The notes beneath the pieces were generated by a model. It was not told the origin of the DNA, did no database searches, and was given only the letters and a program-made list of their open reading frames with translations. A program made the position numbers and the translations under genes. Below are positions 6,550 to 31,032 of a DNA stretch of 64,000 bases, piece after piece; position 1 is the first letter of the stretch, and each line of letters starts with the position of its first letter. The DNA comes from an uncultured Alphaproteobacteria bacterium. Its GTDB lineage: Bacteria; Pseudomonadota; Alphaproteobacteria; Rhodobacterales; Rhodobacteraceae. The DNA lies in the NCBI GenBank assembly GCA_902584635.1, contig CACIAQ010000001.1, positions 104,211 to 168,210 of the forward strand. The letters are read 5' to 3'.

Positions 6550-7803
6550 TCAAGTTTTTTTTGCCAAAATTGCAATAAAATAACTGGAACAAACTAAAAA
6601 GACCGTCGTAAAGAATAAGCAAAGGCTAAGCCCGCCCAACTGATAGCTAACTCCAGATAATAGTGTTCCAAAAAAGCGACCCACTGCGTTAGCTGAATAG
6701 TAAAAACCAACATCTTCGGATGCATTTTTTTTACTTGTTAACTTTAATATCAAATAAGAATGGATGCTTGAATTAATTGCAAAAAAACCTCCAAATATAA
6801 AAAGTAAAGTGATTATTATTACAATCAGCGTAACTGACAGAGTGTTATCAAAAACAAAAGTTAACAAAGTTAAAAATAAGGTAGGGAAAATTACAATAAT
6901 GGACCAGCGAAAAGCACTAGATTCTATATTTAAATCAGTTTTTCTTTGAATAATTGCTGGCACTTGAGATTGTACGAAGCCATAAAAAATGACCCATAGA
7001 GCCATGAAGCTACCTACCAAAAGGAAAACAACTTTACCGTTTGATCCCGTAACAAACATAGTTGAAAACACTTCCAATAAAAACAAAGGAATTCCAATTA
7101 CGAACCAAATGTCTCGTGCACCAAACAAGAAAATTCTCGACAAAGAAAGATAATTTATACTGGAAATGTCAGAAAAAAACTTTCCCTCTGATTGTACTCT
7201 ATTTGATTTTGTATTTAATTCAGGCGTTTTTAACACTGGGTTCAACGCAATCATTAGAGCTATAAACAAAATGAAGGCAAGAATATATAAAGAGATTGAG
7301 AAGGGATGAATGGTAATCAAAAAAGCACCAACAAAAAAACCTAACCCTTTAACAGTATTTTTGGATCCTGTGAGCCAACTGACGTTCCTAAAAAGCTTCC
7401 CTTTAATATTTTCATTGCTTAGAAACTTTACGGCTGTCTTACTTCCTATTTTAGTCAAATCTTTAGCGACACCACAGAGACCTTGAAAAAAGATAAGGCA
7501 AAAAATCATAAACCATTCTGGGCTATTAATCGAAAGAAGGCCAAGTGATGTTAGGCATAATACCTGCAGGCTAGTACCAGCTATCAAGAGGGTGGATAAT
7601 CCAAAGCGACGACCAAAAATGCCAGCCATAAAATTTGTAATAACACCCATAAATTCGTAGAGTAGAAATATATAAGCGAGAGTAAAAGGAGAATAGCCTT
7701 TATCATGAAAATGCATTAGCACTAACATTCGTAAAGCACCATCGGTCAGCATCAAAAACCAATAAATAATCGATACATTTAAAAATGGATTGAATATCAA
7801 CAA
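6550..7803 (-). CDS. arsJ: Organoarsenical efflux MFS transporter ArsJ-like
   Basis: N-terminal LTDGALRMLVLMHFHDKGYSPFTLAYIFLLYEFMGVITN and LTGSKNTVKGLGFFVGA resemble ArsJ; immediately follows a GAPDH gene, the known arsJ arrangement. TTG start as given in the ORF track. Confidence 0.88.
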   Translation of the reverse strand: MLIFNPFLNVSIIYWFLMLTDGALRMLVLMHFHDKGYSPFTLAYIFLLYEFMGVITNFMAGIFGRRFGLSTLLIAGTSLQVLCLTSLGLLSINSPEWFMIFCLIFFQGLCGVAKDLTKIGSKTAVKFLSNENIKGKLFRNVSWLTGSKNTVKGLGFFVGAFLITIHPFSISLYILAFILFIALMIALNPVLKTPELNTKSNRVQSEGKFFSDISSINYLSLSRIFLFGARDIWFVIGIPLFLLEVFSTMFVTGSNGKVVFLLVGSFMALWVIFYGFVQSQVPAIIQRKTDLNIESSAFRWSIIVIFPTLFLTLLTFVFDNTLSVTLIVIIITLLFIFGGFFAINSSIHSYLILKLTSKKNASEDVGFYYSANAVGRFFGTLLSGVSYQLGGLSLCLFFTTVFLVCSSYFIAILAKKT

Positions 7804-7812
7804 GAGGAAAGC

Positions 7813-8817
7813 CTAGTCTCGGATTAATTTAGATAAGATGTCAACCATTCTACAGGCGTATCCCCATTCATTATCATACCATGCATATATCTTAAGCTGG
7901 GTTTTATTTACGACCATAGTTGAAAGAGAGTCGATAATTGCTGAGTGGGGATTATTAACATAATCAGATGACACCAAGGGTTTTTCTTCATAAGATAGGA
8001 TATCTCTCAAATAGGTATTTGAAGCTTCGTTAAAAAGTTGATTAATCTTATCAACTTCTACATTCTGTTTCATCTCAAAAACACAATCAGTCAATGATGC
8101 GTTCAAGAGAGGAACTCTTACAGAATGTCCATTCAGCCTTCCTTTAAGCTCTGGATAAATTAATGAAATCGCCCTAGCTGAGCCCGTGGTCGTGGGGATT
8201 AATGAGTTAATACCGGATCTCGATCGCCTTAAATTATTTTTTGGAGCATCAACAATAGTTTGAGAGTTTGTAATGTTATGGATAGTTGTAATTGACCCAT
8301 GCTTTATTCCAATATTTTCTTCGAGAACTTTTACAATAGGCGCGAGGCAATTAGTGGTACAGCTTGCGGCTGTAAATATTTTATAAGCACTAGTGTCTAT
8401 GGACTGATGATTTATTCCATAAACAATATTCTGGACATTGGATGATTCTATAGGGGCAGAAATTAATACGTATGATGCCTTTCTTTCGAAGTATGGCTCA
8501 AGTAATTTTTCTGATTTATTCACGCCAGTGCAATCTACTACCAGAAACTTTTCAGATTTAGGAAAACTAATACTCTCTATAGACCCCTCTGTCATCACAG
8601 CTATAGAATGATCTTTGTAATTAAGACAACCATTTTCAAAACAAAGGTCATCACCCCAAGTCCCATGAACGGTGTCATATCTTAAAAAATACTCTTGGTC
8701 AGAAGCAGACCCTGCTTTCTCATTCACCATTAAAATATTTTTATGGAGGTTCTCATCGCATAGTCTTCTAAAGACAAGCTTCCCGATTCTTCCTAACCCG
8801 TTAATAATTATTTTCAT
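7813..8817 (-). CDS. Glyceraldehyde-3-phosphate dehydrogenase family protein, ArsJ-associated
   Basis: NGLGRIGKLVFRRL, FTAASCTTNCLAPIVKVLEE (catalytic Cys), WYDNEWGYACRMVD; 9 bp before arsJ. Confidence 0.93.
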   Translation of the reverse strand: MKIIINGLGRIGKLVFRRLCDENLHKNILMVNEKAGSASDQEYFLRYDTVHGTWGDDLCFENGCLNYKDHSIAVMTEGSIESISFPKSEKFLVVDCTGVNKSEKLLEPYFERKASYVLISAPIESSNVQNIVYGINHQSIDTSAYKIFTAASCTTNCLAPIVKVLEENIGIKHGSITTIHNITNSQTIVDAPKNNLRRSRSGINSLIPTTTGSARAISLIYPELKGRLNGHSVRVPLLNASLTDCVFEMKQNVEVDKINQLFNEASNTYLRDILSYEEKPLVSSDYVNNPHSAIIDSLSTMVVNKTQLKIYAWYDNEWGYACRMVDILSKLIRD

Positions 8818-20508: not shown

Positions 20509-20537
20509 TAGTCATATTTCTGTCATATAAATGTCAT
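20509..20537 (+). promoter_or_regulatory. Pho box abutting the Sel1-repeat gene
   Basis: TAGTCAT (20509), CTGTCAT (20520), ATGTCAT (20531): three 11-bp repeats. Confidence 0.75.
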
Positions 20538-29355: not shown

Positions 29356-29778
29356 TTATCTTGAAAGAAGCAGATACAAGTCGGGATTGTCTATCAACAG
29401 CATGGCAACTGCAGTACCACATATCGCGGATCCAATCATTAGTGCTCTGTCGCTCCATTGCATGCCGACATATATCCATCCGATGGCACTAAAGAAATAA
29501 CACAATTGCCCCAAAATATACATTTTTCCTGATGTAAGAAATACTCCTAATACACACAATATCATGGCTCCCCATTTAACATACCAATCTCTTGTACCAG
29601 TAGGCGTAAGAGGTTTAATGTCATCGTACTCGCCTTGTAATTCCTCTAGCTCTTGAGCAAGCCTCTTTTTTTCAGACGCTAACTCCATTGCTAGTCTTCC
29701 TGCTTTAGTAGTTATATTATGTAATTTGCCGTCTTCGCCTAATTCAGTGATGGTATCAGCGTCTTTTTCCTTCGACAT
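29356..29778 (-). CDS. Hypothetical membrane protein
   Basis: Polar N-terminus MSKEKDADTITELGEDGKLHNITTK, coiled-coil-like EKKRLAQELEELQGEYDDI, then 2-3 hydrophobic segments. Confidence 0.75.
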   Translation of the reverse strand: MSKEKDADTITELGEDGKLHNITTKAGRLAMELASEKKRLAQELEELQGEYDDIKPLTPTGTRDWYVKWGAMILCVLGVFLTSGKMYILGQLCYFFSAIGWIYVGMQWSDRALMIGSAICGTAVAMLLIDNPDLYLLLSR

Positions 29779-29922
29779 TTTACTTCCTTTTGAAGATTTA
29801 AATTTAATCGCGCCAAAATTTAGCAATAAAAATTATTCAGTCAAATAAAAATTAAAAATAGTCTTACAATACGCTTCTAAAGTCCAATTTTAGAAATTGA
29901 CTAGCTGCTACATCAATGTATC

Positions 29923-29955
29923 AAAAAGAAAAGGGCCGCCTACTTACAACGGCCC
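29923..29955 (-). terminator. Intrinsic terminator of candidate sRNA A
   Basis: GGGCCG (29950-29955 reversed) and CGGCCC (29933-29938 reversed), 11-nt loop, followed on minus by TTTTCTTTTT. Confidence 0.75.
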
Positions 29956-29984
29956 AGTTGGGAGGGAAATACATACGTGTATTT
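29923..29984 (-). ncRNA. Candidate Pho-regulated small RNA A (about 62 nt)
   Basis: Minus strand: AAATACACGTATGTATTT hairpin, CCCTCCCAACT, GGGCCG-TTGTAAGTAGG-CGGCCC stem, TTTTCTTTTT; Pho-like repeats and TAGATG upstream. Confidence 0.55.
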
Positions 29985-29990
29985 GAACAT

Positions 29991-30035
29991 CATCTATCTT
30001 TTAAATGTTAAAGATTGATGACAATTTGATGAAAA
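29991..30035 (-). promoter_or_regulatory. Candidate Pho box plus -10 for sRNA A
   Basis: Minus strand TTTTCAT-CAAA-TTGTCAT-CAAT-CTTTAAC (11-bp repeats), ATTTAAAAGA, TAGATG. Confidence 0.6.
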
Positions 30036-30198: not shown

Positions 30199-31032
30199 AT
30201 GTTGCAAAATAGAAGTCAGACACACCCTGTGTTTTCATTCGCCGATGGAGAAATGGGTGTAATTTCCAATAAAATAATCCGCTACTTAGAAAAATTAACG
30301 GGTCAACCGCGTATAGAAAAACTATATTTTGACTATGTAAATGATAATCTAAATCCAGAATATTTTTGGTCAGATGCGCTTGACCGACTGCGTATCGAAC
30401 TAGACATCCGTCGAGAAGTTTCAAATGGAATAATGGCATCCATACCGTCTACTGGACGGGTCGTGACCATCGCTAATCATCCATATGGAGTCATAGATGG
30501 ACTTGCCTTATGCTCAATTATGGCCGAAGTGCGGCAGGACTATAAAATCATTACCCACAGGGTATTGAGACAGGCGCCAGCGGTAATGGACAAAATCCTG
30601 CCAATAGATTTTGCAGAGACGAAAATTGCGCTTAAAACAAATATGGAGTCTCGCCGTGGAGCTTTGGAACACCTCAGAAATGGTGATGCACTTATAATCT
30701 TCCCAGCAGGCGCCATATCATTAGCGCCAAATATATTTGGAACTGCAAGTGATGCGCCGTGGAAAACATTTGTTGCGAAATTAGCGTTGCAGCCTGACAC
30801 AACTACTATTCCGTTCTACTTTGAGGGACGTAATTCAGCGTTATTTCAAATTGTGAGAAAAATAAGCTTTACGCTTGGTTATTCACTTATGTTTAGGGAA
30901 ATTTGTAGAAGAATGGGGACAAATTTAACTGTCACGATGCGTCCTTCTATACACAGTTCCAAACTAGCTGAAATGGAAAACCGGAATGTGATCACAGAAT
31001 ATCTCAGGCGCCAAACCTATGATTGGTCTTAG
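30199..31032 (+). CDS. PlsC-like lysophospholipid acyltransferase
   Basis: VVTIANHPYGVIDGLAL (NHxxxxD), NGDALIIFPAGAIS; GGAG RBS. Confidence 0.85.
   Translation: MLQNRSQTHPVFSFADGEMGVISNKIIRYLEKLTGQPRIEKLYFDYVNDNLNPEYFWSDALDRLRIELDIRREVSNGIMASIPSTGRVVTIANHPYGVIDGLALCSIMAEVRQDYKIITHRVLRQAPAVMDKILPIDFAETKIALKTNMESRRGALEHLRNGDALIIFPAGAISLAPNIFGTASDAPWKTFVAKLALQPDTTTIPFYFEGRNSALFQIVRKISFTLGYSLMFREICRRMGTNLTVTMRPSIHSSKLAEMENRNVITEYLRRQTYDWS

Follow-up and report, generated by a model that had tools for sequence, protein, structure and literature searches.

A candidate PhoB-controlled small RNA gene, a diverged relative of the αr8 family, in the phosphorus island of a marine alphaproteobacterium

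Introduction

A short gap within the window, by which we mean the whole stretch of 64,000 nucleotides analysed here, raises the question of whether a segment read on the minus strand from 30035 to 29923 is a small RNA (sRNA) gene under phosphate control, and to which known RNAs it is related. A first-pass annotation had proposed a Pho-driven, terminator-ended sRNA with an anti-Shine-Dalgarno-like (anti-SD-like) segment at this locus, here called copy A. The promoter geometry against which the locus was read is that general to PhoB promoters and that given in PMC3616915. In Pho regulon promoters, direct repeats at 11-bp steps replace the -35 element, and copy A is built alike. In the αr8 RNAs, with which we compared copy A, a weak hairpin precedes a single-stranded UUUCCUCCCU, which is followed by a Rho-independent terminator; these RNAs have siblings with unrelated promoters, for which distinct expression is reported in Caulobacter (PMC12559287).

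Results

Judged by its ORFs, the window forms a phosphorus island for phosphate and phosphonate acquisition. The pst genes lie together with a phoR-like kinase at 0.6-6.5 kb, the phn clusters occupy 12.5-34 kb, and a ugp-like transporter is encoded at 36.6-40.8 kb. The phoB gene lies just beyond the window (C1:103426-104103; 311 bits, above the cut-off), and an Hfq gene was found in the same genome. Copy A occupies the gap between a divergent PlsC-type acyltransferase gene on the plus strand (30199-31032; Pfam PF19576 and PF01553) and a DUF6552 membrane protein gene on the minus strand (29356-29778; Pfam PF20189, E = 7.6e-10). The DUF6552 ORF has a good SD sequence and an ATG about 145 nt past the copy A terminator, with a weak promoter-like site between the two (29844-29817), and is probably a gene separate from the copy A unit, which no ORF of at least 60 aa overlaps. 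Elsewhere in the window (6550-8817), an MFS-type transporter ORF stands beside a GAPDH-like ORF, an arrangement that, as far as the ORFs go, recalls an arsenate-handling pair.

Direct reading of the minus strand gave three PhoB-type half-sites, TTTTCAT (30035-30029), TTGTCAT (30024-30018) and CTTTAAC (30013-30007), which follow one another at steps of exactly 11 bp and form a Pho box (30007-30035) that a weight matrix also recognised. A 10-bp spacer separates the third half-site from a putative -10-like hexamer, TAGATG (29996-29991), just as the first-pass annotation had described; placed by sequence and alignment, the hexamer is a weak -10 match and differs between copies. The predicted sRNA, delimited by covariance model and fold, spans about 62 nt from a putative start (29923-29984, minus strand). 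It opens with a weak predicted 5' hairpin, AAAUAC/GUAUUU (29967-29984), continues with the C-rich anti-SD-like stretch UUUCCCUCCC (29960-29969), which was identified from the sequence and by comparison with canonical copies, and closes with an intrinsic terminator stem-loop (29933-29955; eight pairs, six of them G-C) and a T-rich tail (29932-29923). Terminator scan and predicted fold both backed the terminator proposed earlier for the end of the ~62-nt unit. The proposed 5' hairpin was likewise recovered, and CCCUCCC is free as had been claimed; the UUU of UUUCCCUCCC, however, is not unpaired, since the 3' arm of the hairpin absorbs it, so that in the predicted fold only CCCUCCC and the part following it are exposed. 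The z-score of the fold was -2.35, with -2.0 and -3.4 for orthologues.

We assessed family membership with a covariance model, R1, for which 35 canonical αr8 RNAs of the genus and of other families were aligned; copies A, B and C (B and C are described below) were left out to avoid circularity. R1 matched copy A at 29918-29987 with 28.1 bits (28.0 bits with filters off) and an E-value of 6.5e-06, which is rough, the calibration having been shortened. This was the only strong R1 match in the window (next best, 14.1 bits), and the C copies scored 22.7-31.0 bits. Against Rfam RF00519 (suhB/MmgR), copy A reached 19.3 bits and two C copies 23.8 and 23.6 bits, short of the curated cut-off of 41, and copy A is therefore termed a diverged αr8 relative and not an RF00519 member; Rfam at its gathering threshold gave no match within the window. 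Elsewhere in the same genome, RF00519 matched C51:673-744 (42.1 bits, above the cut-off) and the canonical C68:216-286 (36.3 bits, below it).

Copy A has in common with the αr8 RNAs (MmgR of Sinorhizobium meliloti, SisA-D of Caulobacter crescentus; RF00519) the weak 5' hairpin, a C-rich anti-SD core predicted to be single-stranded, a similar length and a Rho-independent terminator of ACUGGGCC type, which directly follows the core. It differs from them in a seed with one C more (UUUCCCUCCC, not UUUCCUCCCU; the C copies carry UUCCCUU-type stretches), in its Pho box and in the lack of an N-formylglutamate amidohydrolase neighbour. The AbcR1/AbcR2 RNAs of rhizobia and Brucella also carry a short anti-SD-type motif, and PMC5461406 and PMC8844928 give transporter mRNAs as their known targets; the Rfam searches, however, gave no AbcR-type match, and the covariance match of copy A is to αr8. 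The terminator pattern was unmatched in viral contigs. These comparisons support, from sequence, a Pho-box-driven, terminator-ended, anti-SD-like sRNA as the best reading of copy A; conservation and the αr8 match thus strengthen what the first-pass annotation had suggested, whereas the family had escaped it.

Copy A was intact in eight genomes, seven of them further members of the same genus with 91-99% identity, and synteny with the downstream gene was the same at all A loci. The assemblies compared were incomplete, single-cell or metagenome assemblies. Copy A was present in 8 of the 12 phnJ-positive genomes of the genus and in none of the 10 phnJ-negative ones (Fisher P = 0.002, a value that ignores relatedness and incompleteness). 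The conservation profile over the orthologous A loci was flat; these loci are too similar for constraint on the unit to be separated from that on its flanks, so the conservation evidence rests on copy C.

Copy C was found at a different locus in four genomes (G000, on contig C68, G004, G019 and G020). Its neighbours differ from those of A, with bioY in three genomes and, on the C-copy strand of L002, no downstream ORF of at least 70 aa. Although its flanks have diverged, copy C retains the order Pho repeats, C-rich stretch, terminator. The hairpin is re-formed with a changed sequence (AAAUAC..GUAUUU in A, AAUACG(UUU)CGUAUU in the C copy of G004), and a weak hairpin before the core is predicted in A, its orthologues and the C copies of G000 and G004, and a weaker one in that of G019. 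Two doubts raised at the outset can thus be answered: terminator and repeats, which might have proved unconserved in relatives, are kept in the A and C copies, and the unit, which might have been an ordinary 5' UTR of the 29778-29356 ORF, recurs at a second locus with other downstream genes and is therefore not simply that. Four genomes carry copy B some 1.25 kb downstream of A, and G016, where the contig ends nearby, has it too. The terminator of B is without its 3' arm, the Pho box is largely gone, and shuffled sequences fold at least as well; B accordingly looks decayed. An element of about 40 bp, CCATCTGCTGCACACTCCAAGAACATA, lies 3' of B and C, is near-inverted in L002 (17-62 and 540-560) and is absent from the window.

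A weight matrix based on the general consensus for PhoB sites gave the copy A Pho box 15.9 bits and fourth place in the 64-kb window, behind three sites, two of them overlapping, at the phn cluster (20509-20537 and 21311). The other window sites adjoin phn genes; unlike the transport or enzyme genes of the Pho regulon, copy A has a predicted non-coding RNA as its product. The best sites of 60 shuffled windows averaged 13.8 bits, and one of the 60 reached 17.7 bits, so the copy A score taken alone is good yet not decisive against chance. What lifts copy A clearly above chance is conservation, recurrence and the αr8 match. Upstream of the C copies the matrix gave 10.7, 10.7 and 6.0 bits, upstream of B 4.7 bits, and in the 24 other αr8-type sibling regions at most 4.8 bits. 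Among the αr8-type siblings scored, the Pho box is thus restricted to the A/C class: every A copy retains it, and it can still be recognised in the C copies. A strict pattern of Pho box plus αr8-like seed matched only the copy A genome among 387 genomes drawn from the class, so that, at this strictness, the Pho wiring looks confined to the genus. Three loci of one genome of the same class (L013, L018 and L020 of G065) have AATTGTCATCAAATTGTCATCAA in common, with two Pho-box-like half-sites at 11 bp; it is the sole part of the query that matched in that genome, and these are probably Pho boxes of other genes.

Across 22 genomes of the genus, R1 detected one to six αr8-type loci per genome, five of them in the genome of copy A; several siblings with unrelated promoters per genome are also the habit of the αr8 family. 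By sequence, at least five classes of these RNAs can be told apart, with different upstream regions (22 genomes; L189-L208). Two canonical αr8 classes have in common the upstream motif TTACGTTAACGTCACGTTATxCTTG, about 60-70 nt before the core, which is palindromic at ACGTTAACGT and likely a regulator's operator. The motif occurs at L002:216-286, L055, L058-L070 and L073, and further at L189, L190, L196, L197, L199, L201, L202, L207 and L208; it is absent from the window at up to three mismatches. Just past a canonical copy, L002:343-400 (plus strand) holds another TTTTCCTCCCCAACTGG stretch without a good terminator, possibly an αr8 relic.

The copy A seed had 27 exact complements before ATG and its reversed pattern had 23, which is no enrichment; for the canonical αr8 seed the counts were 19 and 7. 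Among the canonical-seed matches whose start codon is plausible are those of a Peripla_BP_6 solute-binding protein, a DctP protein and an ABC ATPase. These matches would fit transporter control, a reading that is suggestive only, because SD sequences themselves resemble the seed pattern. A perfect 10-mer target of copy A in contig C57 was rejected, as it lies antisense within a ubiE-like gene.

Discussion

We consider it probable that copy A is a PhoB-promoted gene for a trans-acting sRNA, a diverged αr8 sibling located in a phosphate and phosphonate island; transcription, phosphate induction, Hfq binding and repression by copy A are what this identity predicts. At low phosphate, PhoB would bind the triple repeat upstream of copy A, and the promoter so occupied would yield an RNA of about 62 nt ending at its own terminator. 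Assisted by Hfq, the exposed C-rich stretch would then pair with SD-like, G-rich sites of selected mRNAs, and their translation would fall. By analogy, Hfq-aided SD pairing with reduced translation, as for SisA, is the most likely mode of action: in Caulobacter, pairing of the C-rich core of SisA with SD-like sites reduces translation (PMC12559287).

Other readings of the unit must be weighed against this one. It might be the 5' leader of the DUF6552 gene, with hairpin and terminator serving as an attenuator or leaky stop of a PhoB-started mRNA, and the same-strand ORF with its ATG so close past the terminator, together with the synteny kept at all A loci, agrees with such a leader. However, the genes downstream of copy C are different ones (or, on that strand of L002, none of 70 aa or more), the covariance match likens the unit to stand-alone αr8 RNAs, and a promoter-like site, weak as it is, intervenes before the ATG; we regard a leader as unlikely. 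Slightly lower still do we place an sRNA that, under phosphate starvation, serves chiefly to compete with or titrate its αr8 siblings, for Hfq or shared targets, more than to repress mRNAs itself. The presence of five αr8-type loci in a single genome would suit it, as would a seed that departs from the canonical core and is unenriched before start codons where the canonical seed is enriched. Caulobacter, moreover, has a known sponge of αr8 RNAs, albeit a G/A-rich one that base-pairs with them. The C-rich stretch of copy A, by contrast, is unable to pair with the C-rich core of the siblings, and according to computed duplex energies it still pairs with SD-like sites.

Highly improbable, finally, is a non-functional remnant whose Pho box serves another gene, such as the divergent acyltransferase, and whose RNA part is decaying as copy B has. 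The losses in B show such decay nearby, and the A orthologues are too alike to tell constraint on A from that on its flanks; but A is intact in all eight genomes that carry it, and C keeps the same order of parts between flanks that have diverged.

As a PhoB-promoted sRNA gene, copy A apparently represents αr8 wiring redirected to a phosphate-starvation switch in an ocean bacterium. The literature searched, which included only a minority of subscription journals, yielded no report of an αr8 RNA under PhoB control. Through its recognisable PhoB site and its co-occurrence with the C-P lyase island, one αr8 sibling becomes linked to a named signal, in a form that can be tested. More speculatively, αr8 may have multiplied in this marine genus into classes that share an anti-SD core but differ in promoter, and the PhoB-dependent class may have an altered seed and targets of its own, so that one architecture might relay separate nutrient signals, phosphate included, to transport and metabolism mRNAs. 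If copy A acts as proposed, a small-genome ocean bacterium would add post-transcriptional control to its phosphate response.
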